In this document: piece by piece, positions 27,684 through 43,130 of the stretch | How the letters are laid out: the number at the start of each line of letters is the position of its first letter | Position numbering within the stretch: position 1 is the stretch's first letter | DNA from: Cellulomonas sp. URHD0024 | Lineage (GTDB): Bacteria; Actinomycetota; Actinomycetes; Actinomycetales; Cellulomonadaceae | NCBI RefSeq assembly: GCF_000426185.1 | Contig: NZ_AUEW01000009.1 | Coordinates: 1-64,000, forward strand | DNA: 64,000 nt | Reading direction: 5' to 3' | The notes under the pieces: model-generated | Told to the model about the DNA's origin: nothing | Databases searched by the model: none | The model's input: the letters and a program-made list of their open reading frames with translations, nothing else | Position numbers and translations under genes: made by a program

Positions 27684-29009
27684 ATGCCTGATCTGGTCGT
27701 GCGCGCACTGCGCGTCTGGCTCGAGGGTGCGTTCCGTCCGGCTCAGGTGCAGGTCAGCGGTGGTGCGGTGACCGGGATCCTGCCGTTCGAGCCGCCTGTG
27801 GCCGGTGCGGTCACGCTGCCCGACGACGAGGTGCTCCTGCCCGGTCTGGTCGACTCGCACGTGCACGTCAACGAGCCAGGACGCACGGCGTGGGAGGGGT
27901 TCACGTCGGCCACCCGGGCGGCGGCCGCGGGCGGCGTGACGACGATCGTCGACATGCCGCTCAACTCGATCCCGCCGACCACGACGGTCGAGGCGCTCGA
28001 GCTCAAGACCGACGCCACCATCGGCAAGCTCACCGCGGACGTGGCCTTCTGGGGCGGTGCCGTCCCCGGCAACCTCGGCTCCTTGAAGGCCCTGCACGAC
28101 GCCGGCGTGCGCGGGTTCAAGGCGTTCCTCGCACCCTCGGGGGTCGACGAGTTCGAGCACCTCCCCGAGGAGCTGCTGGAGCCCGCGCTCGCGGAGATCG
28201 CCGCGATCGGCAGTGTCCTGATCGTGCACGCGGAGGACCCGTCGCACCTGCACGAGGCACACGGCGGCTCCTACGACGACTTCGTCGCCTCCCGGCCGCC
28301 GATCTCCGAACGCAACGCGATCGCTCACGTCATCGACGCCATGCGCGTCACGGGGGCCCGGGCGCACATCCTGCACGTCTCGGCGGCGGACTCCCTCGAC
28401 CTCGTCCGGGAGGCCCGCGCCGAGGGTCTCCCGCTGACCGTCGAGACCTGCCCGCACTACCTGACCCTGCGCGCCGAGGACGTCCCCACCGGTGGGACCC
28501 AGTTCAAGTGCTGCCCGCCCATCCGCGACGGCGCCAACCAGGACCTCCTCTGGGAGGCAGTGCTCGACGGGACGTTCGACGCGATCGTCTCCGACCACTC
28601 GCCGTCCACCGCCGACCTCAAGCGCGGCGACTTCGGCTCCTCGTGGGGCGGGATCGCCGGTCTGCAGCTGGGGTTCACGGTGGTGTGGACGGAGGCGCGG
28701 CGGCGTGGGCTGCCGCTCGACGCGATCCTGCCGCTGTTCACCACCGGCCCGGCGCGCGTCGCGGGTCTGGCGGCGGGCGTCATCGAGGTCGGAGCCCCGG
28801 CCCACCTCGTCGCGTTCGCCCCCGACGACGAGTGGGTGGTCGACGTCCGCGCCCTGGAGCACAAGAACCCCATCTCCCCGTACGACGGAGCACGCGTCAC
28901 GGGGCTCGCCCGGAGCGTGTGGCTGCGCGGGGAGCCGATCGTGGAGCGCGGCCTCGTCAGCAGAGCCGGAACCGGGCGGACGATCCTGCCGGAGGCCGAA
29001 GGTGCGTAG
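27684..29009 (+). CDS. allB: Allantoinase
   Basis: About 441 residues. It hydrolyses the ring of allantoin to allantoate. As a cyclic amidohydrolase it shows metal ligands in DSHVHVNEPGRTAWEGF, the carboxylated Lys in GFKAFLAPSG, HAED, the later His in HILHVSAAD and the Asp in SDHSPS. Its length and order match AllB. It begins the purine-breakdown locus, although the gene after it (29014-29694) is on the other strand and interrupts the set. A weak GlnR-like site and a TAGCCT hexamer lie upstream. Confidence 0.95.
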   Translation: MPDLVVRALRVWLEGAFRPAQVQVSGGAVTGILPFEPPVAGAVTLPDDEVLLPGLVDSHVHVNEPGRTAWEGFTSATRAAAAGGVTTIVDMPLNSIPPTTTVEALELKTDATIGKLTADVAFWGGAVPGNLGSLKALHDAGVRGFKAFLAPSGVDEFEHLPEELLEPALAEIAAIGSVLIVHAEDPSHLHEAHGGSYDDFVASRPPISERNAIAHVIDAMRVTGARAHILHVSAADSLDLVREARAEGLPLTVETCPHYLTLRAEDVPTGGTQFKCCPPIRDGANQDLLWEAVLDGTFDAIVSDHSPSTADLKRGDFGSSWGGIAGLQLGFTVVWTEARRRGLPLDAILPLFTTGPARVAGLAAGVIEVGAPAHLVAFAPDDEWVVDVRALEHKNPISPYDGARVTGLARSVWLRGEPIVERGLVSRAGTGRTILPEAEGA

Positions 29010-29013
29010 GGCG

Positions 29014-29694
29014 TCAGGCCTCGCGGTGCCGGTGGCCCAGCGCGACGGTGACGAGGGCGAGCGCGCCGGCCACGAGCATCCCCACGCCGACGCCACGCTC
29101 ACCGCCCACCTTGAGCAGCAGGGCTCCGAAGGCCGCACCGACCAGGATCAGCGCGACCGCGAGCGAGCGGCGCGCCCAGCCGTCGCCGGTGCCACCGGCC
29201 AGGCGCGAGTCGGCAGCGAGCCCGGTCAGGGTGCTCGTCACGACGACCGTCGTCACGTCCTTCACGGCCAGACGGCGCGCCGCAGCGGCCTGCAGGCCCA
29301 TCGCGACGGCGAGCACCCCGGTCACGACGAGAGCCCAGACCTGGCCCTGCGCCGGCGGTTCGACGACGGCGGCGATGCCGAGGCCGACCGCCAGCACGCC
29401 GGTCGCCAGAAACGTCATGCTCGTCCGGTGCGACCAGCCCGCGGGTGCGGTCCGCAGCACCCGTCCCCCGATCGCGGCACCGCCCAGGAAGGCCGCGAGC
29501 GCGATGGCCGGACCGAGGATCGGCAGGTCGTTCCCACCGACGAGCGCCATGCCGAGGATGACCACGTTGCCCGTCATGTTCGCCGTGAACACGCGGTCCA
29601 GGCCGAGGTAGCCGACGGCGTCGACGATGCCGGTCGTGAACGTCAGCGCCAGCATCAGCACCAGGTGTCGGCGCGTGTCGTCCCAGGTCTTCAC
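29014..29694 (-). CDS. YoaK/DUF1275 family membrane protein
   Basis: About 226 residues from GTG 29694. It begins with LVLMLALTFTTGIVDAVGYLGLDRVFTANMTGNVV, the hallmark of the DUF1275 family, and has six or so membrane helices. The function is unknown; small-molecule transport has been suggested for the family. It converges on allB with four bases between the stops and diverges from the formamidase gene by 26 bases, so it may share control with the purine locus. Confidence 0.87.
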   Translation of the reverse strand: MKTWDDTRRHLVLMLALTFTTGIVDAVGYLGLDRVFTANMTGNVVILGMALVGGNDLPILGPAIALAAFLGGAAIGGRVLRTAPAGWSHRTSMTFLATGVLAVGLGIAAVVEPPAQGQVWALVVTGVLAVAMGLQAAAARRLAVKDVTTVVVTSTLTGLAADSRLAGGTGDGWARRSLAVALILVGAAFGALLLKVGGERGVGVGMLVAGALALVTVALGHRHREA

Positions 29695-29720
29695 GGCGTC
29701 ATCGTGGGGGTCCGGGCCTG

Positions 29721-30791
29721 GTGAGTGCAACGTTGCAGCCCGGCACAGGCCCGGTGCAGGCGCCCACGTACCTGCCCTCGACACCGGGCACGGTCCTCTG
29801 GGGGCGCCTCCCGTGCGGCTCCGACGAGCCGGTCCTGCGGGTCGTCGACGGCGCCGAGGTCACCATCGACACGGTCAGCCACGAGGGCCTGCTCGCCGAC
29901 CAGGGCAGCGATCCGCTCGCGTACTTCACCGGCCACGGGGTGGCGCCGCAGGACGTGCTGACCGACGCGATCGAGATCGTCGCCGCCCTGCGCCGCGGCC
30001 CCGACGACGGCCCGCACCTCGTCACCGGCCCGATCTTCGTCGACGGTGCGATGCCCGGGGACCTGCTCGCCATCACCGTCCTGGAGACCACGCCCCGTGT
30101 CCCGTACGGCGTGATCTCCAACCGGCACGGACGCGGTGCGCTGGCCGGCGAGCTGCCGCGTGCGGCCGACGAGGTCAGCGTGTTCACGCCGGTGGTCGAG
30201 GGCCACGGACGGCTGCCGCTCGTGGAGGGCGGGTCGCGGGACGTGGCGTTCCCGCTCGCGCCGTTCCTCGGGATCATGGGCGTCGCGGTCGCCGGGGACG
30301 AGCGGCCGCACTCCGTCCCGCCCGGCGCGCACGGTGGCAACCTCGACATCAACCTGCTCCAGGTCGGGGCCACGCTCTACCTGCCCGTCCAGGTGCCCGG
30401 TGCACTCGCGTACGTCGGCGACCCGCACTTCGCGCAGGGCGACGGAGAGGTCGCGCTGACGGCGCTGGAGGCGTCGCTCCGGGTGACGCTGCGGTTCGAC
30501 GTCGTGCCGGCCATGGTCGCGAAGGCACAGTTCGGGGAGCTCGACGGGCCGTTGGTGAGGACGGCCGAGTACCTCGTCCCGACGGGGCTGCACAGCGAGC
30601 TGGACGAGGCCGTGCGGCGCTGCGTCCGCGCCGCGATCGCCCTCCTGCGGGCACGCTGGGGCATGGACGAGCACCTGGCCTACGCGTACCTGTCGGCGGC
30701 GACGGACTTCGACATCTCCCAGGTGGTCGACCTGGTGTGCGGTGTGCACGCCCGGATCCGCGTGGCCGACTTCGACGGGGTGAGCGCATGA
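29721..30791 (+). CDS. Acetamidase/formamidase family protein
   Basis: A 356-residue FmdA/AmdA-type amidohydrolase starting at GTG 29721. Typical marks are GPIFVDGAMPGDLLAITVLE, the HSVPPGAHGGNLDINLLQVGATLYLPVQVPGALAYVGDPHFAQGDGEV stretch in pieces and YAYLSAATDFDISQVVD near the end. The family releases ammonia from short amides such as formamide and acetamide using a metal centre. It is the first gene of a four-gene overlapping set with the AtzH-amidase fusion, pucG and allC. Because the set should yield oxalurate, a role on oxamate or another small amide from allantoin is a reasonable inference. Confidence 0.88.
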   Translation: MSATLQPGTGPVQAPTYLPSTPGTVLWGRLPCGSDEPVLRVVDGAEVTIDTVSHEGLLADQGSDPLAYFTGHGVAPQDVLTDAIEIVAALRRGPDDGPHLVTGPIFVDGAMPGDLLAITVLETTPRVPYGVISNRHGRGALAGELPRAADEVSVFTPVVEGHGRLPLVEGGSRDVAFPLAPFLGIMGVAVAGDERPHSVPPGAHGGNLDINLLQVGATLYLPVQVPGALAYVGDPHFAQGDGEVALTALEASLRVTLRFDVVPAMVAKAQFGELDGPLVRTAEYLVPTGLHSELDEAVRRCVRAAIALLRARWGMDEHLAYAYLSAATDFDISQVVDLVCGVHARIRVADFDGVSA

Positions 30792-32320
30792 CCGAACCTC
30801 CGGCCGAGCTCCGGGCCGCCTTCGAGGCGTACGAGACCGCGATCCTCGACGACGACGTCGCGGTCCTCGACGACTCGTTCGCGCCCGGTCCGACGACGTT
30901 GCGTGGCGACACGGACGGACTGCTCGTCGGGCACGACGCGATCAGCGCGTTCCGCAGGGGCCGGGGCGGCGTCGGACCGCGGACCCTGGACCGGGTCGAG
31001 ACGCGGAAGCTGGCCGAGGACTGCTGGCTGATCGTCGCGACGAGCCGCTACGCCGGCGGCGGGACCGGCCTGCAGACCCAGGTCTGGCAGCTGGCAGACG
31101 GTCGCTGGCGGATCACCGCAGCGCACGTGACCGGGCGGACGCAGAGCTTCGACCGGTCGACCTGGCGGACGGTCGGCGACCCGCTCTACCAGGGCGCGTT
31201 CGAGGGTCCGCTGGTGGGGATGCGCGTCGCGGTCAAGGACCTGTTCGCGATCAGCGGCTACCGGATCGGCGCGGGCAACCCGACCTGGCTGCGCGAGGCC
31301 CACCGCGAGCGCCACCACGCCCCCGTGGTGCTGGACCTGCTGCGCGGCGGCGCCTCGATCCGAGGCCTGGCCCGAACGGACGAGCTCGCCTACTCGATCG
31401 CCGGCGACAACGCGCACTACGGCACCCCGGTCAACGGTGCGGTGGTCGGCGCGCTGCCGGGCGGCTCGTCGAGCGGTCCTGCCACCGCCGTCGCCACGGG
31501 CCAGGCGGACGTCGGGCTCGCCAGCGACACGGCCGGCTCCATCCGCGTCCCGGCCAGCTACCAGGGCCTGTGGGGTCTGCGGACCACGCACGGCCTCGTG
31601 CCGCGGCAGGGGATGCTCCCGCTCGCGCCGTCGTTCGACACGGTGGGTTGGCTGACCCGCGACGGCGCGACGCTCGAGGCGGTCGCGTCGTGGTGCCTGG
31701 AGACGGCGGTCGACGAGTCGGTCCCGGACGCACACGCCCTGCCAGACCTCCTGCGGGTCCCGCGCGAGGCTCTCGCGGGCAGCGAGCCGGCGACCCGGGC
31801 GGCGTTCGAGGCGTGGTGCGCGCGGCGGGAGGTCGAGCTCGTCGACGTCGGCCCGCTGGACGGTTGGTACGAGGCGTTCCGTGTGGTCCAGGCCGCCGAG
31901 GCGTGGCGCACGCACGGTCAGTGGATCACCGAGCACCCCGATGCGGTCGGCCCCGGCGTCCGCGCACGGTTCGAGGTCGCCGCGACGGTCACCGCCGACC
32001 AGGAGGCGCAGGGCCGGGAACGGCTGGCGAGGTACGCCGAGGTCGTCCGCTCCCTCGTCGCCGACGCGGTCCTTGCCCTGCCCAGCGCCCCCGGTCCGGC
32101 CCCCGCGCGCGGTCCCATGGCCGACGACGTCCGCGCCGGGACCCTGCGGATGACCGCCCTTGCGGGCATCGGCGGGCTGCCCGCGCTGAGCGTCCCGGCG
32201 CTTCGCGTCGAGGGCCCCCTCGGCCTCGCACCGGTCGGCGTCTGCCTCGTCGGACCCCGCGGGAGCGACCTGTCCCTGGTGCGACACGCACGCCGCCTCA
32301 CGTCTGGAGAGCTCGCATGA
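30788..32320 (+). CDS. AtzH/HpxZ-like domain fused to an amidase
   Basis: About 510 residues; the ATG overlaps the previous stop (ATGA). Residues 1-125 form an NTF2-like AtzH/DUF3225 domain (LRAAFEAYETAILDDDVAVLDDSF, ITAAHVTGRTQ). Residues 130-510 are an amidase-signature enzyme with a complete Ser-Ser-Lys triad: Lys150 in VAVKDLF, a serine around 227-228 in GGSSSGPATAVA and nucleophile Ser251 in SDTAGSIRVPA. In Klebsiella the separate HpxZ (AtzH-like) protein and a neighbouring amidase are linked to oxalurate breakdown, and AtzF cleaves the related compound allophanate. Placed directly before pucG, whose product is oxalurate, this fusion is a good oxalurate hydrolase candidate. The substrate is inference. 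Confidence 0.88.
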   Translation: MTEPPAELRAAFEAYETAILDDDVAVLDDSFAPGPTTLRGDTDGLLVGHDAISAFRRGRGGVGPRTLDRVETRKLAEDCWLIVATSRYAGGGTGLQTQVWQLADGRWRITAAHVTGRTQSFDRSTWRTVGDPLYQGAFEGPLVGMRVAVKDLFAISGYRIGAGNPTWLREAHRERHHAPVVLDLLRGGASIRGLARTDELAYSIAGDNAHYGTPVNGAVVGALPGGSSSGPATAVATGQADVGLASDTAGSIRVPASYQGLWGLRTTHGLVPRQGMLPLAPSFDTVGWLTRDGATLEAVASWCLETAVDESVPDAHALPDLLRVPREALAGSEPATRAAFEAWCARREVELVDVGPLDGWYEAFRVVQAAEAWRTHGQWITEHPDAVGPGVRARFEVAATVTADQEAQGRERLARYAEVVRSLVADAVLALPSAPGPAPARGPMADDVRAGTLRMTALAGIGGLPALSVPALRVEGPLGLAPVGVCLVGPRGSDLSLVRHARRLTSGELA

Positions 32321-33528
32321 CACGCCCGGTGAACCCGCCTCCTCGCCTCCTGATGGGTCCGGGACCGGTCAACGCCGACCCGCGCGTGCTGCGGGCCATG
32401 TCCACGCCGCTGGTCGGCCAGTACGACCCGGTCATGACCGGGTACATGAACGAGACGCAGGCGCTGTACCGGCAGATCTTCTCGACGACGAACGAGGCGA
32501 CGTTGCTCGTGGACGGGACGTCACGCGCGGGGATCGAGGCGGCGATCGTGTCCCTCGTGCGGCCGGGGCAGCGCGTCCTGGTCCCGGTGTTCGGCCGGTT
32601 CGGGCACCTGCTCGCGGAGATCGCGCTGCGCGCCCAGGCCGAGGTGCACACCGTCGAGGTCGAGTGGGGGCAGGTGTTCACGCCGTCGGCGATCGAGGAC
32701 GCCATCACGCGCGTCAAGCCGCACCTGCTCGCGATCGTGCAGGGCGACACGTCCACGACGATGAACCAGCCGCTCGACGAGCTGGGCGCGATCTGCGCCA
32801 AGCACGGCGTGCTGTTCTACACGGACGCGACCGCGTCACTCGGCGGGAACGCGTTCGAGATGGACGCCTGGGGCCTGGACGCCGCCACCGCCGGGCTGCA
32901 GAAGTGCCTGTCGGGCCCGTCGGGGAGCGCGCCGATCAGCCTGTCCGACCGTGCCGTCGCCGAGATCCGCAGCCGCACGCGTATCGAGGCCGGCATCCGT
33001 GAGGAGTCGGACGAGGACACGGGCGAACCTGTGCACTCCAACTACTTCGACCTCGGCATGGTCCTCGACTACTGGGGACCGCGGCGGCTCAACCACCACA
33101 CCGAGGCGACGACCATGCTCTACGGCGCCCACGAGTGCGCGCGCGTGATCCTGGAGGAGGGCCGCTCGGCGGTCATCGACCGGCACGAGCGCGCGGGCCG
33201 GGCGATGCTGGCGGGCGTGCAGGGACTCGGCCTGTCGGTGTTCGGGTCCGTGAGCCACAAGATGAACAACGTCGTGGCCGTGTTCATCCCGTCCGTGGTC
33301 GCCGGCGACGCCGTGCGCGCTGACCTGCTGAACGACTTCAGCATCGAGATCGGGACGTCGTTCGGGCCGCTGCACGGGCGTGTGTGGCGGATCGGCACCA
33401 TGGGCGTCAACGCTCGCCTCGACTCGGTCCTGGTGACGCTCGCCGCGCTGGAGCAGGTGCTCCGCCGGCACGGCGCGTCCGTCCCCGTCGGTGGCGGTGT
33501 GGACGCGGCCTACGAGGCGTGGGGCTGA
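32317..33528 (+). CDS. pucG: (S)-ureidoglycine--glyoxylate aminotransferase
   Basis: About 403 residues, class V PLP enzyme. It moves the amino group of ureidoglycine to glyoxylate, giving oxalurate and glycine. The PLP lysine lies in GLQKCLSGPSG; LLMGPGPVNADPRVL opens the protein. GQYDP and RLNHHT carry the Gln and Asn residues that separate the ureidoglycine enzymes from plain alanine-glyoxylate aminotransferases, by analogy to Bacillus PucG. It overlaps its neighbours at both ends (ATGA with the amidase, TGATG with allC). Genomic context makes this identity firm. Confidence 0.92.
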   Translation: MTRPVNPPPRLLMGPGPVNADPRVLRAMSTPLVGQYDPVMTGYMNETQALYRQIFSTTNEATLLVDGTSRAGIEAAIVSLVRPGQRVLVPVFGRFGHLLAEIALRAQAEVHTVEVEWGQVFTPSAIEDAITRVKPHLLAIVQGDTSTTMNQPLDELGAICAKHGVLFYTDATASLGGNAFEMDAWGLDAATAGLQKCLSGPSGSAPISLSDRAVAEIRSRTRIEAGIREESDEDTGEPVHSNYFDLGMVLDYWGPRRLNHHTEATTMLYGAHECARVILEEGRSAVIDRHERAGRAMLAGVQGLGLSVFGSVSHKMNNVVAVFIPSVVAGDAVRADLLNDFSIEIGTSFGPLHGRVWRIGTMGVNARLDSVLVTLAALEQVLRRHGASVPVGGGVDAAYEAWG

Positions 33529-34766
33529 TGTTCACGGAGGCTGCGCGTCGGATCATGGCGCGGTGCGACGAGCTCGCTCGCTACACCTCGATGGAGGGCG
33601 GGATCGAGCGCGTCTACCTGTCCCCCGAGCACGCGCGCGTCAACCGCCTGGCGTCGCGCTGGATGCGTGAGGTCGGCCTCGACACCTGGCAGGACGAGGC
33701 CGGGAACCTCAACGGGCACCTGGACGGGAAGGATCGCGAGGCGCCGACGCTGCTGCTGGGGTCCCACCTCGACAGCGTCCGCGACGCGGGTCGGTACGAC
33801 GGCATCCTCGGCGTGCTCATGGCGATCGAGGTGGTGCGGGCCCTGAAGCCTCGGGCTGCCTCGTTCAGGTTCGGCCTCGACGTCGTGGCGTTCTGGGACG
33901 AGGAGGGCGCCCGTTTCGGCACCGCCCTGCTCGGCAGCTCCGCGATGGCGGGCACCTGGAACCCCGCCTGGTGGGACCTGACCGACGTGCACGGCACCAC
34001 TTTGAAGACGGCGTTCCGGGAGTTCGGCCTCGACCCGGGGAGGGTGGGGGCGGCGGCACGCCGCCCGGAGAGCCTCGCCGGGTATCTCGAGGCCCACATC
34101 GAGCAGGGTCCGGATCTCGACCGGTCGAACGCACCGCTCGGCGTCGTCACCTCGATCGCGAGCGCCAGGCGGTTCTCCGTCCAGATCCTCGGCGAGGCCC
34201 GGCACGCCGGCGGGACCCGCTACGAGGACCGGCACGACGCACTGCTCGGCGCCTCGGAGGCGACCCTGGCCGTCGAGCGGCTCTGCCGGGCGGAGCACCA
34301 CATCGTCGGAACCGTCGGGCGCCTGGAGACGTTCCCCGGTGCCGTCAACGTGGTGCCGGGCGAGGCGCACCTCACCGTCGACCTGCGCGGCGAGCACGAC
34401 GACGACCGCGACCGCGTCTGGGCGGCCATCTCCCGGGAGATCGACCAGATCACCGGGCGCCGGGGACTCACGTGGTCGTCGCGCCAGATCCACGAGGCAC
34501 CGGCGGTCTGGTGCGACGGGCTGCTGCAGGACGTGGTGCGCGCGGGCATCGAGGACACCGGCGCGGGCGAGGCCCCGACCATGTTCAGCCGCGCCGGGCA
34601 CGACGCCATGGCGATCGGCGCGGTCACCGGCGTCGGCATGCTCTTCCTGCGCAACCCCGACGGGATCAGCCACCACCCGGACGAGTCCGTCAGCCTCGCC
34701 GACGTCGAGACCGGCCTGCGCGCGCTCGCCTCGACGGTCGAGCACCTGGCCCGCGAGGCGTCATGA
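33528..34766 (+). CDS. allC: Allantoate amidohydrolase
   Basis: About 412 residues, M20/hydantoinase-carbamoylase family. It hydrolyses allantoate to (S)-ureidoglycine with release of ammonia and CO2. Metal-binding residues are visible in GSHLDSVRDAGRYDG, DEEGARFG and AHIEQGP, and the dimerisation lid region includes GEARHAGGTRYEDRHDAL. The start ATG overlaps the pucG stop (TGATG). It supplies the substrate of PucG, so the two form consecutive steps. No ureidoglycine aminohydrolase or ureidoglycolate enzyme is seen nearby, consistent with a transaminase route. Confidence 0.93.
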   Translation: MFTEAARRIMARCDELARYTSMEGGIERVYLSPEHARVNRLASRWMREVGLDTWQDEAGNLNGHLDGKDREAPTLLLGSHLDSVRDAGRYDGILGVLMAIEVVRALKPRAASFRFGLDVVAFWDEEGARFGTALLGSSAMAGTWNPAWWDLTDVHGTTLKTAFREFGLDPGRVGAAARRPESLAGYLEAHIEQGPDLDRSNAPLGVVTSIASARRFSVQILGEARHAGGTRYEDRHDALLGASEATLAVERLCRAEHHIVGTVGRLETFPGAVNVVPGEAHLTVDLRGEHDDDRDRVWAAISREIDQITGRRGLTWSSRQIHEAPAVWCDGLLQDVVRAGIEDTGAGEAPTMFSRAGHDAMAIGAVTGVGMLFLRNPDGISHHPDESVSLADVETGLRALASTVEHLAREAS

Positions 34767-36484: not shown

Positions 36485-39400
36485 TCAGTGCCGACGCCGG
36501 TGCCTGCGGCGAGCCGAGGTCGTGACCAGCAGCGCACCGAGGGACAGTGCCAGCAGCGACGCGACCATCAGCGGATAGACGTCGCCCGCACCCGTCGCCG
36601 ACAGCGCCCCCGACCCGCTGCCTGTCGTCGGCGTCGCGGGTGGCGTGGTCGGCGGTGGCGTGGTCGGCGGGGGTGTCACCGGCGGCTCCGTGACCAGCGG
36701 CTGGACGACGACCACGACGGCGGTCTCGCTGCACAGCGACGTCGACTCCGCACACCTCGTGTACAAGAAGGTGTCTGCGCCGACGAAGCCAGGGTCCGGG
36801 GTGTAGACCAGCGGCGCGACGACGCGCAGATCCACGTTGCCGGTGCCGACGATGGCTCGGACGAGCTCGAGACCGCCGCCGGTCACGGTGCCGTGCGCGG
36901 GCGGGCGCGTGACGACGGGTGTGCCGGCGTCGCCGAAGTCGTTCCCCGCGACGTCGATCGAGATCGCCGTGTCCTGCAGGGTCGCGGTCAGGACCGGGTT
37001 GACGTCCGGGGACACCTCGACGAGCACCTGCGCCTCGGCGCACAGCGGTGGGCCGCTCGGAGCGCAGACGCGGTAGACCAGCTGGTCGTGCCCCGTGAAC
37101 GTGGCGATCGGCGTGTAGGTGAGCAGCCCGCCCCTCAGGTCGACGGTCCCGTCGGCGGGGCCGGAGACGATCGTCGCGACGGGGTCGGGTCCGGTGATGT
37201 CGTTGGCCAGCAGGTCCACGGTGTCCGGTGCGCCGGCCTCGGTGGCCAGCGCGTCACTGGTGGCGAGGGGTTGCACGGACACCCGCACGGTCGCGGTCGC
37301 GCAGACGTCCGCGTCGACGGTCGAGCAGATGGTGTAGCGGAAGGTGTCGGTGCCGACGAAGCCGTTGTCCGGTGTGTAGACGACCGACGCGCCGACCTCG
37401 GTGCTGCCGTTCGCGGGCTGGGTGAGGTCCTGGAGGCCGCCGACGGCGCCGACGTCGTTGGTCTCGACCGGGATGTCGACGGACCCGTTCGCCTCGACGA
37501 CGGCGACGTCGTCCTCCGCGACCGGGAGCACCGTCACCGTGACGAGCGCGGTCCCGCAGTTGGTCGGCTCGGCGATCGCGCACGCCCGCACGGTGAACTC
37601 GTCGCGGCCGGTGAACGGGCCCGTCGGGGTGTACGTGACCCGGCCGGTCCCGTCGACCGTGCCCGTGCCGTCGACGGCGGCACCCGAGACGGTGAACACC
37701 AGGTCGGCTGCGGCGTGGTTGAACGTCAGGTCGGCGACGACGGGCACGGTCGCCGTCGTCGTCAGGTCCTTCCCCTGGACCACGACCGGTGGCAGCGGCT
37801 GCGGGTCGACGTGCACGGTCACCGTCCCGATGGTGCACAGGTTCGCTTCCGCGGTCGCGCACACCTGGTACTGGAAGGTGTCGTCACCGGTGAACCCGGC
37901 GTCCGGCGTGTACGTCGCCCGCCCGTCCGGCTCGACGACTGCCGTCCCGTCCACCGGGCTGACGACGACGACCGGCGAGCCGACACCGCCGAGGTCGTTG
38001 ACGGTGAGCGGGAAGGTCACCGGGATGCCGGCGGTCGTCGCGGCGGCATCCGGCTGCGCGACCGGCGCGATGGTCGCCGTCACGGTCGCCTGGTCGCACA
38101 GCCGGTCGGTGGCGTCGTCACAGACCTGCACCCCGAACGTGAACACGTCCGCGGTGTTCGCCGGCGGGGTGAACGTGAACGAGCCGCTCGTGCTGACCAC
38201 CGCGTTCCCGGCCGCCGGCGGGGTGAGCAGCGTGACGGTCAGCACCTGGCCGACGTCCGGGTCGGACACGAGGACCTGCCCCGACACCGGAGCACCGGCG
38301 GGCCCCGTGACGCTCGCGTCCTGCGCCGTCGGCGCCAGGTTCGGGGGCAGGGTCACGGTGACGTCCACGGTGGCGGTGGCGCACACGTCCGTGTCGACGG
38401 TCGAGCAGATGGTGTAGGTGAAGCTGTCGACGCCGACGAACCCGTCGTCGGGGGTGTACCGGACGGACGTCGTCACCGGCAGCGCGGTGCCGTTGGCCGG
38501 GTCGGACACGTCCTGCGGCGTGCCGACGGTGCCGACGTCGTTCGCCTCGACGGGGATGTCGGCGCTGCTGCCCGCCTCGACGACGGCGGAGTCGTCACCG
38601 GCGACGGGGACGACCGTCACGGTGACGACCGCGGTCCCGCAGTTGGCCGGCTCGGTGACCGCGCACGCCCGCACCGTGAACTCGTCGCGGCCTGTGAACA
38701 GGCCGGCCGGGGTGTAGGTGACCCGGCCGGTCGCGTCGACGACCCCCGTGCCGTCGGTCGCGGCGCTCGACACGGTGAAGGCCAGGTCCGTTGCGGCGTG
38801 GTTGAAGGTCAGGTCGGCCACGACCGGGACGGTCGCCGTCGTCGTCAGGGCCGCGGGCTGCCCCTGCACGGGCGGCAGCGGCTGCGCGCCGACGTGCACC
38901 GTCGCGGACCCGGTGGTGCACAGCGCGGGCTCCGCGGTCGCGCACACCCGATACCCGAAGGTGTCGTCGCCCGTGAACCCGGCATCCGGGGTGTACGTCG
39001 CCTGATCGCCCGGCTCGATCGTCACCGTGCCGTCCACCGGGCTCGTGACGACGACAGGAGCTCCGACTCCCCCGAGGTCGTTGCCGGTCAGGGAGAGCGT
39101 CACCGGGACGCCGGCGGTCGTGGTCGCGAAGTCCGGGTGCGCGACCGGGGTGATCGTCGCGGTCACGTCCGCCTGGTCGCACAGCTGGTCCGGGTGGTCG
39201 TCGCAGACCTGCGCGACGAACGTGAACACGTCCGCAGTGTTCGTCGGCGGGGTGAACGTGAAGGTCCCGTCAGGGTTCACGACCGCGGCCCCGGTGGTGG
39301 GCGGGGTGAGCAGGGTGAAGGAGAGGGCCTGACCGACGTCCGGGTCGGACGCCTCCACCCGCCCGGACACGGCCGCGTCCGCGGGCCCCGTGACGTTCGC

Positions 39401-42400
39401 GTCCTGCGCGGTCGGGGGCTGGTTCGGCGGCTCGCTCACCAGCACCGACACCGTGGCGGTCGCGCACACGTCGACGTCGACCGTCGAGCAGATCGTGTAC
39501 GTGAACGTGTCCGTGCCGACGAAGCCCGCGTCCGGGGTGTACCGGACCAGCCCGGCCGACACGACCGCGGTCCCGCCGGCCGGGTCGGACAGGTCCTGCG
39601 GCGGTCCGACCGTGCCGATGTCGTTCGTCGCGACGGGGATGTCGACGCTGCCGCCCGCCTCGACGGCCGCGGAGTCGTCGCCGGCGACGGGGAGCACGGT
39701 GACCGTGACGAGCGCGGTCCCGCAGTTGGCCGGCTCGCTCACCGCGCACGCCCGCACCGTGAACTCGTCGCGACCCGTGAACAGACCGGTCGGGGTGTAC
39801 GTGACCCGGCCCGTCGCGTCGACGACGCCGGTGCCGTCGGTCGCGGCACCCGAGACCGTGAACACCAGGTCGGGCGCCGCGTGGTTGAACGTCAGGTACG
39901 CCACGACGGGGACGGTCGCCGTCGTCGTCAGGGTCGCCGGCTCGACCTCGACCGGCGGCAGCGGCGCCGGGTCCACGAACACGGTGGCGGTGCCGGTGAC
40001 GCACAGGCTCGGCTCCGCCGTCGCACAGACCGTGTACTGGAACGCGTCCTGACCGGTGAAGCCGGGGTCCGGGGTGTACGACGCCTGACCGTCGGCGGCG
40101 ACCGTCACGTCGCCGTCGGCGGGGCCGGGCGCGACGAGGGCCGGGGCGCCCACCCCGCCGCGGTCGTTCGCGGTCAGGCTGAACGCCACGGGCGTGTCGA
40201 CGACGGTCGTCGCGTTGTCGGGGTGCGCGACCGGCGTGATCGTCGCGGTGACGGTGGCCGGGTCGCACAGCTGGTCGGGATCGTTGTCGCAGACCCGGAC
40301 GACGAACGTGAACACGTCGGCGGTGTCCGCCGGCGGGGTGAACGTGAACGACCTGTCCGGGTTCACGACCGCGGTGCCGGCGGACGGCGGCACGAGCAGG
40401 GTCGCCGTCAGCACCTGGCCGACGTCGGGGTCGCTCGCCGGGACGATGCCCGAGAGGGGCGCGTCCGCGGGACCGGTGACCGCGACGTCCTGTGCCGTCG
40501 GCGGCTCGTTCGGGGGCTCGAGGACGTTGATCGCCACGACTGCCTCGCCGCACACCGTGACCGGGTTCGAGCAGATCCGGTACGTGAGCAGGTCCGGGCC
40601 GACGTAGTCGGGTCCGGGCGTGTACTCGACCTCCGCGCCGACCATGACGGCGGTGCCGTGGGCCGGGGCGTCGACGATCCTCGGGCCGCCGACGCTGTCC
40701 CCGACGTCGTTGGTCAGCACCGGGATCGAGACCGGCACGTTCTGGATGGTCTCCGCTGCGTCGCGCACCGCCAGCGGCGCCACGACCACGGTGACCGTCC
40801 CCGTCGCGCACCCCTGGGGCAGCGCGTTGTCGCAGCCCTGGATGGCGAACCCGTCGATGCCGGTGAACGTGCCGTCGGGCGTGTACTCGAACACGCCGTC
40901 CGGGCCTGCCGTCGCGACGCCGTGCGCCGCCTGGGTCGCCAGCTCGGTGACGACCTCTTGTCCCTCGTCCGGGTCGCTGACCGGGATGGCACCGGCGACG
41001 GTCTGGGTCGCCCGGGTGGACACGACGACGTCGTCCAGGACCGGTGGGAGGTTGCCGGCAGGCAGCGTCCCGTTCACCCGGGTGGTGACCGCCTGCCCGG
41101 GGGTGGACCCGTTGTTGTTCGACGGGTTCGGGTCGCTCGTCGTGCTCGTCGAGCTCACGGTGTTGGTGAGCGTCCCGGACATGGGCGCGAACCCCGTGAC
41201 GGTGAGCTGGACGTCCGCCTGGTTCGCCAGCGACGCCACGGTCCACGTCACGGTCCCCCCGGCGACGACACCGCCGCCGGTCGCGAACACGTTGGTCAGC
41301 TCGGCGGGCAGGGTGTCGGTGACGACGATCCCGGTGGCCGTGTCGGGGCCGGCGTTGTGCACCGTGACGGCGTAGTTGACGGTGCCGCCGGGGGAGACGT
41401 TGGCCGGGCCCGTCTTGGTCAGCAGGACGTCCGCGACCGGCTCGTGCGTGGCGCAGGTGCCGACCGTGGCGTCCGGTGGCGGGTTCTCGACCGTTCCGGC
41501 GACGGTGTTGACCACGGAGCCGCTCTGCTGGTCGAAGACCTTCGGGGCCGCCGGCGGGGTCAGGTCCTGCACGACGATCGGCTGCGCGGGGGTGTCGCCG
41601 GCGAAGACCAGCTCGGAGAGGGTGGTGCCGGCGAACCGGAAGCGGCCGAACCCCGTGACCGTGCCCGAGTTGTCCAGCGTCTCGGAGACGGTGATGCCGT
41701 CCGGCGTCTGGGTGAACACCCCTTCCTGTCCCACACGGAGCACACCGCTGGGCGCGCGGATGATGCCGGCGTTCGTGACGCCGCTGCCGCTGCCGCTGTT
41801 GACGGTGACGTCGTCGCTGGAGTCGATGACGCACTCGTTGCTCATCGTCGCGCCCGCGTTCACGCGGAACGGGCCGCCGAAGACACGGATGTGCCCGGTG
41901 TTGCGCAGGACGCCGTCGACCGCCAGACCGTGGCGGGTGACGAGCTCACCGGAGTTCAGCAGCGTCGACCCGGCGGTCGTGTCGAGGCGCGCCTCCAGCC
42001 GCCCGGCGTTGTCCACCTGCGAGCCCGAGTTCAGGTCGATCGTGCCGGTCGTCGCCGACCCCGTCGGACCGATCGTGAGCTCGCTGGACCCGTCCAGGGT
42101 CAGGTTGCCGAGCGTGGCGGTCCCCTGGACGACCAGGTCGAACTCGGAGACCGACGTCAGGGAGGGCAGGTCCGCGGCACCGAGCACGAACAGGTCGCCG
42201 GCCGGGCTCTTCATCGTCCTGGGCTGCAGCGTGGCGTCCGTGTCGACGCACAGGGTCCCGTCCGCGCCCAGGTCGAGCTTTCCCGTGTAGGTGCCCGCGG
42301 TCAGCAGGAGGACCTGCCCCGCGGTGACGGTCAGGTCGTCGTCGTTGCCGCCGGCCGACGTCGACGTCGGGGTGTCGCACACGCTCACGGGCGGCGGCTC

Positions 42401-42481
42401 CGCCGACGCCGGATCGAGTGGTCCCAGACCGAGCGCGACGAGGAGGATCACGACGCCGAGGGCGGCGGCCTTTCCTCGCAT
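36485..42481 (-). CDS. Giant cell-wall-anchored repeat protein
   Basis: About 1998 residues from ATG 42481, preceded by GGAGG. A signal peptide ends DPASA (residue 27). Residues 28-355 are rich in short beta turns (TATLGNLTLDGSSELTIGPTG, NTGHIRVFGG), possibly a beta-helix stalk. A DUF11 domain follows (about 351-457, ADVLLTKTGPANVSPGGTVNY). Residues 470-1930 are Ig/Big_9-like domains organised in three superrepeats of about 361 residues. A Pro/Thr wall-spanning linker leads to LSATG (about 1959-1963), a membrane helix and the tail RRRHRRRH, a sortase signal close to the LAxTG class used by actinobacterial class E enzymes. Adhesion or a cell-surface layer is the likely role; no catalytic domain is seen. 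Confidence 0.87.
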   Translation of the reverse strand: MRGKAAALGVVILLVALGLGPLDPASAEPPPVSVCDTPTSTSAGGNDDDLTVTAGQVLLLTAGTYTGKLDLGADGTLCVDTDATLQPRTMKSPAGDLFVLGAADLPSLTSVSEFDLVVQGTATLGNLTLDGSSELTIGPTGSATTGTIDLNSGSQVDNAGRLEARLDTTAGSTLLNSGELVTRHGLAVDGVLRNTGHIRVFGGPFRVNAGATMSNECVIDSSDDVTVNSGSGSGVTNAGIIRAPSGVLRVGQEGVFTQTPDGITVSETLDNSGTVTGFGRFRFAGTTLSELVFAGDTPAQPIVVQDLTPPAAPKVFDQQSGSVVNTVAGTVENPPPDATVGTCATHEPVADVLLTKTGPANVSPGGTVNYAVTVHNAGPDTATGIVVTDTLPAELTNVFATGGGVVAGGTVTWTVASLANQADVQLTVTGFAPMSGTLTNTVSSTSTTSDPNPSNNNGSTPGQAVTTRVNGTLPAGNLPPVLDDVVVSTRATQTVAGAIPVSDPDEGQEVVTELATQAAHGVATAGPDGVFEYTPDGTFTGIDGFAIQGCDNALPQGCATGTVTVVVAPLAVRDAAETIQNVPVSIPVLTNDVGDSVGGPRIVDAPAHGTAVMVGAEVEYTPGPDYVGPDLLTYRICSNPVTVCGEAVVAINVLEPPNEPPTAQDVAVTGPADAPLSGIVPASDPDVGQVLTATLLVPPSAGTAVVNPDRSFTFTPPADTADVFTFVVRVCDNDPDQLCDPATVTATITPVAHPDNATTVVDTPVAFSLTANDRGGVGAPALVAPGPADGDVTVAADGQASYTPDPGFTGQDAFQYTVCATAEPSLCVTGTATVFVDPAPLPPVEVEPATLTTTATVPVVAYLTFNHAAPDLVFTVSGAATDGTGVVDATGRVTYTPTGLFTGRDEFTVRACAVSEPANCGTALVTVTVLPVAGDDSAAVEAGGSVDIPVATNDIGTVGPPQDLSDPAGGTAVVSAGLVRYTPDAGFVGTDTFTYTICSTVDVDVCATATVSVLVSEPPNQPPTAQDANVTGPADAAVSGRVEASDPDVGQALSFTLLTPPTTGAAVVNPDGTFTFTPPTNTADVFTFVAQVCDDHPDQLCDQADVTATITPVAHPDFATTTAGVPVTLSLTGNDLGGVGAPVVVTSPVDGTVTIEPGDQATYTPDAGFTGDDTFGYRVCATAEPALCTTGSATVHVGAQPLPPVQGQPAALTTTATVPVVADLTFNHAATDLAFTVSSAATDGTGVVDATGRVTYTPAGLFTGRDEFTVRACAVTEPANCGTAVVTVTVVPVAGDDSAVVEAGSSADIPVEANDVGTVGTPQDVSDPANGTALPVTTSVRYTPDDGFVGVDSFTYTICSTVDTDVCATATVDVTVTLPPNLAPTAQDASVTGPAGAPVSGQVLVSDPDVGQVLTVTLLTPPAAGNAVVSTSGSFTFTPPANTADVFTFGVQVCDDATDRLCDQATVTATIAPVAQPDAAATTAGIPVTFPLTVNDLGGVGSPVVVVSPVDGTAVVEPDGRATYTPDAGFTGDDTFQYQVCATAEANLCTIGTVTVHVDPQPLPPVVVQGKDLTTTATVPVVADLTFNHAAADLVFTVSGAAVDGTGTVDGTGRVTYTPTGPFTGRDEFTVRACAIAEPTNCGTALVTVTVLPVAEDDVAVVEANGSVDIPVETNDVGAVGGLQDLTQPANGSTEVGASVVYTPDNGFVGTDTFRYTICSTVDADVCATATVRVSVQPLATSDALATEAGAPDTVDLLANDITGPDPVATIVSGPADGTVDLRGGLLTYTPIATFTGHDQLVYRVCAPSGPPLCAEAQVLVEVSPDVNPVLTATLQDTAISIDVAGNDFGDAGTPVVTRPPAHGTVTGGGLELVRAIVGTGNVDLRVVAPLVYTPDPGFVGADTFLYTRCAESTSLCSETAVVVVVQPLVTEPPVTPPPTTPPPTTPPATPTTGSGSGALSATGAGDVYPLMVASLLALSLGALLVTTSARRRHRRRH
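37265..40512 (-). repeat. Three tandem superrepeats inside the giant surface protein
   Basis: Anchors such as GTCCTG(T/C)G lie at 40487, 39401 and 38318, spacings of 1086 and 1083 bases. Each unit has four parts: TAQDxxVTGPADAPxSG with SDPDVGQ; an AGVPVTFSLTxNDLGG part; a TTTATVPVVADLTFNHAA part with FTGRDEFTVRACA; and a VEAGGSVDIPVETND part with FVGTDTFTYTICS. Similarity is high at DNA level, so copy number could change by recombination. Confidence 0.85.
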
Positions 42482-42572
42482 GGCGCCTCCGGGCACGCGC
42501 TCGCTCTGAACGTTGCCCCCACTGTGTCCCAGTCTGTGCCAGTTTGCGACCCATCGGCCCAGAATGGTCGCC

Positions 42573-43130
42573 ATGACCGTCGCGGGCCTGCTGCTCACCC
42601 CCGGTGCGAGCGCAGGGCGCGACAGCCCGCCGCTGGTCGCCGTCGAGAAGGCCGTCGACCCGCTGCCCGTGCTGCGGGTGGACTTCCCCAACCGCGCCGC
42701 CGGCAGCCGCGCACCCGAGCGTGCGCCGGTGGCGATCGCCCACGTGCGGTCGACGGCGTCCTCGATGGCCGAGGCTCTGGGGGTGCCGCCGGAGACCCTC
42801 GTCCTCGGCGGCCGGTCGTTCGGTGGCCGGATGTGCTCGATGGCGGTCGCGGAGGGCCAGCCGGCTGCCGGTCTCGTCCTGCTGTCCTATCCCCTGCACC
42901 CGCCCGGCCGACCCGACCGCCTCCGGATCGAGCACCTGCCCGCGATCACCGTCCCGGTCCTCGCCATCTCCGGCGAGCGCGACCCGTTCGGCACGCCCGA
43001 CGAGCTCCGGACGCACCTCGCGGCGATCGCCGGACCGGTCGCGACCGTGTTCGTCGCCGGGACCCACACGCCGTCGAACAACGGCGCGGTCGCGCAGGCG
43101 GTCCGCGACTGGCTCGCCACGATCGGCTGA
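42573..43130 (+). CDS. Alpha/beta hydrolase, TEX30/KANL3-like
   Basis: About 185 residues from ATG 42573 (an ATG at 42564 would add three residues). It opens with VAGLLLTPGASAGRDSP, has the nucleophile elbow GGRSFGGRM, a candidate Asp in SGERDPFG and a His in AGTHTPSN near the end. Small alpha/beta hydrolases of this type (COG3571) are widespread and poorly characterised. It is divergent from the giant surface protein with about 90 bases between starts. Confidence 0.83.
   Translation: MTVAGLLLTPGASAGRDSPPLVAVEKAVDPLPVLRVDFPNRAAGSRAPERAPVAIAHVRSTASSMAEALGVPPETLVLGGRSFGGRMCSMAVAEGQPAAGLVLLSYPLHPPGRPDRLRIEHLPAITVPVLAISGERDPFGTPDELRTHLAAIAGPVATVFVAGTHTPSNNGAVAQAVRDWLATIG

Follow-up and report, generated by a model that had tools for sequence, protein, structure and literature searches.

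A predicted all-hydrolytic route from allantoin to oxalate encoded by an AtzH-amidase fusion and an FmdA-like protein in Cellulomonas sp. URHD0024

Oxalurate holds a central place in the recovery of nitrogen from purines, and its phosphorolytic use was tied to genes only in 2024, according to excerpts of PMC11326118. The allantoin locus of Cellulomonas sp. URHD0024 raises a related question: by which enzymes would oxalurate be finished there? The analysed stretch (the window) comprises 64,000 nucleotides, positions 1 to 64,000 of contig NZ_AUEW01000009.1, and carries in a row the genes of an FmdA-like protein, an AtzH/HpxZ-amidase fusion, PucG and AllC, with allB upstream. We consider it probable that this operon encodes an all-hydrolytic end of allantoin degradation, in which the fusion is predicted to convert oxalurate to oxamate and the FmdA-like protein oxamate to oxalate. 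The gene order, domains, conserved residues, co-occurrence, neighbours and natural fusions behind this reading were observed directly; the substrates are predicted.

The preliminary description of this DNA had pointed to four overlapping genes, and these were recovered on the plus strand with overlaps of 4, 4 and 1 bases: the fmdA-like gene of the acetamidase/formamidase family (29721..30791; PF03069, 113.5 bits; predicted from context and fusions to encode an oxamate amidohydrolase), the fusion gene (30788..32320, 510 aa; a predicted oxalurate amidohydrolase in view of its Pfam domains, triad and co-occurrence with pucG), pucG/hpxJ for ureidoglycine-glyoxylate aminotransferase (32317..33528) and allC/hpxK for allantoate amidohydrolase (33528..34766). 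The allantoinase gene allB occupies 27684..29009 on the same strand (TIGR03178, 509 bits against an equivalog cut-off of 358). PucG matches PDB 3nnk, labelled ureidoglycine-glyoxylate aminotransferase, with 573 bits and 3isl with 416 bits, and its probable function is assigned through this strong similarity to solved enzymes. AllC scores 494.4 bits with NF006775 (cut-off 479) and stays below a second model, TIGR03176 (196 vs 598). The steps up to oxalurate can thus be assigned by family, and oxalurate is the expected product of PucG.

How could the complete route proceed? AllB would open allantoin and AllC would make ureidoglycine, whose amino group PucG would transfer to glyoxylate, giving oxalurate. 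The Ser-cisSer-Lys amidase domain would then attack oxalurate at its terminal ureido amide. Hydrolysis there would free ammonia and leave N-carboxyoxamate, a carbamate similar to 1,3-dicarboxyurea, the putative AtzH substrate. The fused AtzH domain would speed the loss of CO2 that turns N-carboxyoxamate into oxamate, and the FmdA-like enzyme would cleave oxamate to oxalate and ammonia, the job performed in Klebsiella by HpxW, a protein of an unrelated family.

To which family does the fusion belong? It is a single open frame containing both PF11533 and PF01425, as the preliminary description had read it. The AtzH/HpxZ (NTF2-fold) domain covers residues 6-115 (30803..31132, plus strand; PF11533, 65.8 bits, cut-off 27; HpxZ equivalog, 58.5 vs 135), and the amidase-signature domain covers residues 138-510 (31199..32317, plus strand; PF01425, 154.5 bits). 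The Lys-cisSer-Ser triad of amidase-signature enzymes is present and, as had been claimed, intact: Lys150, cis-Ser227 and Ser251 are invariant across the 53 proteins of alignment A1, including two unfused ones, and Ser228 is nearly so. The structure model of the fusion (pLDDT 81.8), which, like that of the FmdA-like protein, informs on domains only, consists of two domains and a low-confidence linker (116-133). In Foldseek, the amidase domain best matched malonamidase E2 (E 7e-28), and further top solved-structure matches of the fusion included GatA, allophanate hydrolase and AtzE. Two known identities were tried and rejected by family models, namely HpxY/AtzE-type amidase (TIGR02715, 132.7 vs cut-off 425.75; NF006631, 140.6 vs 461) and AtzF (equivalog TIGR02713, 126.8 vs 511); the nearest NCBIfam model is PRK08310 (373.8 vs 391). 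AtzE rows fall on a branch separate from the fusion in the amidase tree, which was built without L001_own and L002_own (wrong frame) and L033, L039, L096 and L133 (no fusion gene called), and in which the bounds of the L161 row were guessed and each of its two stops replaced by X. The overlapping genes leave no room between them for an HpxX/AtzG-type small-subunit gene; in a tblastn search for AtzG, the cross-species AtzG control failed. By the family cut-offs, the amidase is an orthologue of neither HpxY/AtzE nor AtzF.

Is this arrangement peculiar to one strain? A scan of genome contigs yielded 40 loci, 38 of them close. Of these, 36 carry the whole set of five from allB to allC, in the same order and all on one strand, and the other two (L015, L032) run into contig ends. 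The gene order, which the preliminary description had proposed to look for in related genomes, is therefore not due to chance. In an order-wide sample of 396 genomes, the fusion was matched in 82 at E 1e-30, and removal of three weak ones with no more than 36% identity (G170, G301 and G347) left 79 amidase-bearing genomes. With pucG called at E 1e-120, the amidase was present in 62 of 63 pucG-bearing genomes and occurred alone in 17, while 316 had neither; by genus, 14 had both, none pucG alone, 7 the amidase alone and 88 neither. Because relatedness inflates the Fisher value of this co-occurrence, weight is put on the counts. Loci were fetched from 60 of the 79 genomes: fmdA was found in 44, pucG in 40, both in 38 and a detectable AtzH in 55. 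The genes fmdA, amidase, pucG and allC stand together in 38 of the 60, in several gene orders; among the 44 loci with fmdA, all but two (42) have it immediately upstream of the amidase. No HpxW match of at least 100 bits occurred in these 60 loci. Many of them also hold genes for uricase, HIU hydrolase, OHCU decarboxylase, an allantoin-type permease and hydantoin racemase in varying order, which marks a urate-to-oxalurate pathway. The architecture is widespread, being common in parts of the actinobacterial order and not peculiar to Cellulomonas sp. URHD0024. Two records stand apart: a copy from a record titled Planococcus (L007) groups among Microbacterium in the tree, the record probably being mislabelled or contaminated, and the fusion of G366 (C1:1811888-1813367) is in two adjacent pieces.

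What points to oxamate as the substrate of the FmdA-like protein? Excerpts of PMC5270733 describe the release of oxalate and ammonium from oxamate by HpxW. In gammaproteobacterial loci of Paraglaciecola (L042), Photobacterium (L151) and genome G745 (L159), an unfused amidase orthologue adjoins HpxW, followed by pucG and allC. The L042 HpxW scores 281 and 220 bits with two chains of PDB 5hft, which we take to be Klebsiella HpxW, and is matched by those of L151 and L159 at 55 and 70%. Sampling of 369 gammaproteobacterial genomes turned up the amidase in 8; at five more distant loci of this group (L161-L165), none of the neighbours just named was seen. The comparison of loci shows close amidase orthologues accompanied by PucG and by a second protein, HpxW or FmdA, depending on the group. 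In the genome of the window (G000), an HpxW query gave nothing at E 1e-20, and the sole GGT found, which scores 595 bits against 6j3a and 92 bits against chain A of 5hft, was rejected as HpxW. The same query in 20 actinobacterial genomes gave no match at E 1e-20 in 13 and GGT-like matches of 29 to 34% identity in 7. On a Paracoccus plasmid (L149), genes for the amidase, RidA and an HpxW-like protein (39%) stand next to one another, and pucG is missing.

The FmdA-like protein itself lies within the PF03069 family, and its structure model (pLDDT 75.4) matches the acetamidase/formamidase family, but it does not reach the formamidase equivalog NF045496 (71.8 vs 500). Its Arg135-His136 pair is invariant in the 40 proteins of the FmdA clade (alignment A2) and differs in the four solved relatives aligned at this site, where two other solved relatives were not aligned; this conservation is suggestive of an acidic substrate without being proof. 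FmdA was also searched for in 20 genomes, mostly those without fmdA beside the amidase. The gene adjoins the amidase in G000 and G348 and lies ~9 to 12 kb from it in G031, G063, G105 and G186; in six genomes of genus g25 (G078, G092, G106, G120, G162 and G176), it stands beside pucG in the opposite direction, with the amidase in the same locus in G078.

Natural one-chain proteins join FmdA to the amidase. In Microbacterium kunmingense (L039), the two form one 793-residue open frame without AtzH, and no in-frame start occurs in 150 bases at the junction. A protein search, in which the best 120 of 431 were examined, revealed 16 proteins with FmdA and amidase domains, of which 12 were accepted as full length: six FmdA-amidase proteins (P0245-P0249, P0251) and six FmdA-AtzH-amidase proteins (P0254-P0259, four of them named Mycetocola). 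Left out were P0250, P0263 and P0277 (partial matches or a long branch) and P0303 (FmdA C-terminus missing). All 12 keep Lys150, Ser227 and Ser251, and at 18 FmdA sites checked in them, the only changes are at D96 in P0254 and Y321 in P0251. On the fusion tree, which includes the four doubtful rows, the FmdA-amidase and FmdA-AtzH-amidase labels need six and three changes, respectively (at least four and two going by starred branches), so welding happened several times. Since fmdA and the fusion gene often overlap by four bases (median gap of -4 in 76 pairs), a single indel can join them; the weight lies on the persistence of the joined forms with their residues kept.

What would the AtzH domain contribute? 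Excerpts of PMC6219798 infer that AtzH decarboxylates 1,3-dicarboxyurea using Tyr22 and Arg46. These residues correspond to Tyr15 and Arg39 of the fusion, and among the 20 fusions compared, six of the nine AtzH pocket residues (Y22, R46, R63, R66, R73 and Q108) are kept in all and Q106 in 18. Taken further, FmdA, AtzH and the amidase could form one oxalurate-to-oxalate machine that was welded repeatedly. The amidase would remove ammonia from oxalurate, the unstable N-carboxyoxamate would move on to AtzH (or, in proteins that lost AtzH, straight to FmdA), and FmdA would be a new oxamate amidohydrolase unrelated to HpxW. We regard this wider proposal as tentative, with somewhat less than an even chance of being correct; if true, it would imply that DUF3225/HpxZ proteins serve generally to decarboxylate carbamates. 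Unfused hpxZ-amidase pairs occur on plasmids of Caballeronia, Azospirillum and Roseomonas; in the first two (L145, L146), they lie near DUF1116/AllG-like and xanthine-dehydrogenase-type hydroxylase genes.

These data have to be set against a number of observations that weigh on the other side, some of which favour different explanations. Not one of the 20 fusions compared retains the AtzH residue F94, and the R96 position is a gap in 19 and Asn in one; five of the six three-domain proteins have Asn at the Q106 position and Thr for Ser228. No AtzH part is present in L039, L123 and L132, and none was detected at the pathway loci of gammaproteobacteria. The domain is therefore dispensable; we infer that it is an accessory speeding a step that can run unaided. 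G092 has pucG and fmdA, and no amidase was found there. The best fmdA lies away from both amidase and pucG in G365, G014, G048 and G148, no fmdA was found at E 1e-20 in G103, G393 and G032 (the last a fragmented assembly), and the fmdA of G195 (C2:109150-110325) carries a stop; the amidase is beside or within ~3 kb of pucG in G014, G032, G048 and G148. The HpxW match in G162 reaches 34% and 245 bits, those of the six other genomes being weaker.

Could the FmdA-like protein act elsewhere? The fusion might make oxamate as an exported end product, while FmdA would act on another compound, for instance ureidoglycine, formamide or the carbamate intermediate. FmdA proteins form a broad family, and the operon protein falls short of its formamidase equivalog; L160 has the amidase, pucG, allC and a membrane transport protein, and its fetched stretch shows neither HpxW nor fmdA; and AtzH is absent from the six one-chain FmdA-amidase proteins, as if FmdA could fill its role. 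However, FmdA occupies the place beside the amidase that HpxW holds in L042, L151 and L159, it shares one chain with the amidase in several lineages, and its invariant Arg135-His136, different in the four solved relatives, suggests an acidic substrate. We therefore consider oxamate export unlikely, although it is the best placed of the alternatives.

Could the amidase instead cut the inner bond of oxalurate? Oxalate and urea would result, and urease would then free the ammonia. Such a cut is conceivable because urease is encoded in the genome (G000 C3:169372-169722), but the HpxW that stands beside the amidase orthologue uses oxamate (excerpts of PMC5270733), and a urea-releasing cut would leave the AtzH domain without a carbamate and FmdA without a substrate, so we hold it to be improbable.

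A similarly low probability attaches to the idea that the fmdA-fusion pair works as a module on ureido acids or other amides in general, the PucG link being only one of several uses. The amidase occurs without pucG in 17 of the 79 genomes at the threshold used, an isochorismatase-like gene accompanies it at some loci, mostly on separate tree branches, and on a Rhodococcus plasmid (L147), the pair is surrounded by genes for ABC transporter and LLM flavin oxidoreductase proteins, with no allantoin genes within 7 kb. The substrate range may thus be broader, and the pair can serve elsewhere, as the pucG-free loci, some with the isochorismatase-like gene, indicate. The window's supported tree group is nevertheless tight, with pucG in the locus in 52 of 53 rows, the exception being the contig-cut L015. 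The loci that combine the fusion with an isochorismatase-like gene and no pucG are L106, L109, L120, L121, L122, L130, L093, L097 and L098, the last three of which additionally hold fmdA.

Finally, it is most improbable that the fusion hydrolyses allophanate or biuret: its amidase is distantly related to AtzF and AtzE (29 to 43% identity over parts), but its scores with both models lie far below the cut-offs, and a separate AtzF-like allophanate hydrolase, 40% identical to AtzF, is encoded in the genome (G000 C2:237898-239136), which makes allophanate unlikely as the main substrate.

The comparative evidence, namely pucG co-occurrence, HpxW neighbours and FmdA fusions, leaves the hydrolytic route favoured, with oxalurate as the predicted substrate of the fusion and oxamate as that of the formamidase-like protein, as the preliminary description had proposed. 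It had also named an oxamate carbamoyltransferase set (AllFGH) elsewhere in the genome, carrying the flux, as one finding that would refute this route. This candidate was set aside: AllG and AllH (PF06545, PF11392) were not found in the genome, while the E. coli control was detected; AllF was not searched for.

Regarding the surroundings, allB had been placed just upstream of the four genes, which is correct for its position, but a DUF1275 membrane protein gene on the minus strand, missed earlier, lies between allB and fmdA (29014..~29694; PF06912, 121 bits; start uncertain, 29694 or 29784). In gene-called loci, DUF1275 adjoins 18 of 79 fmdA genes, in 16 cases on the opposite strand; in gammaproteobacteria, TauE (L042, L159) or a Mem_trans protein (L160) is encoded close to the locus. 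These membrane proteins are possibly exporters of oxalate or oxamate. A promoter and terminator scan found none, the composition profile has no clear break, and the minus strand shortly downstream of the operon carries a very long open frame that contains repeated segments (window 36485-42574).

What is new in this locus? A literature search, covering part of the open literature and without the primary Klebsiella hpx papers, found no description of a fused AtzH-amidase or of an oxamate-acting FmdA. Genomic support for this variation on the hpx-type oxalurate route is strong. The locus points to a second hydrolytic solution for oxalurate in Cellulomonas, Microbacterium and other genera of the order, and it offers a predicted function for a large family (4463 matches at E 1e-40, the best 120 examined) whose members are named only AtzH-like domain-containing protein, amidase or acetamidase/formamidase. 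The one-chain versions make the order of steps and the role of HpxZ directly testable.

How does the operon compare with known systems? The hydrolytic oxalurate route is known mainly from Klebsiella hpxWXYZ, where it was proposed without a transcarbamoylase. The earlier statement that no fused, transcarbamoylase-free route was known to be described in actinobacteria stands, within the literature searched, for the fusion and FmdA, but the hydrolytic route itself had already been proposed; the novelty is the different amidase, FmdA instead of HpxW, and the fusions. The operon and the Klebsiella system (HpxJ, HpxK, HpxWXYZ) both have an allantoate amidohydrolase and a ureidoglycine-glyoxylate aminotransferase, together with an amidase, a protein of HpxZ type and a final, amide-releasing enzyme; the operon differs in that its amidase is of another subfamily and fused to HpxZ, the FmdA family replaces HpxW, and an HpxX-type gene has no space between its genes. 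The FmdA/AmdA acetamidase-formamidase family shares the PF03069 fold and sequence with the operon protein, which is far below the formamidase equivalog and has an Arg135-His136 pair that the four solved relatives aligned there do not have. Malonamidase E2 of Bradyrhizobium, the closest solved fold and likewise a small amidase for an acidic amide, differs in its 27% identity, lack of an AtzH domain and other substrate. AtzG-AtzE-AtzH of Pseudomonas ADP, used in cyanuric acid breakdown, also combines an amidase with AtzH, thought to decarboxylate a carbamate product (excerpts of PMC6219798), but its genes are separate, AtzG is needed, the substrate is 1-carboxybiuret and the amidase is only distantly related. 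The E. coli AllFGH oxamate carbamoyltransferase likewise consumes oxalurate and yields oxamate (excerpts of PMC11326118), but it acts phosphorolytically and conserves energy as carbamoyl phosphate, whereas the Cellulomonas operon, its genome without detected AllG or AllH, would reach oxamate and then oxalate by hydrolysis.

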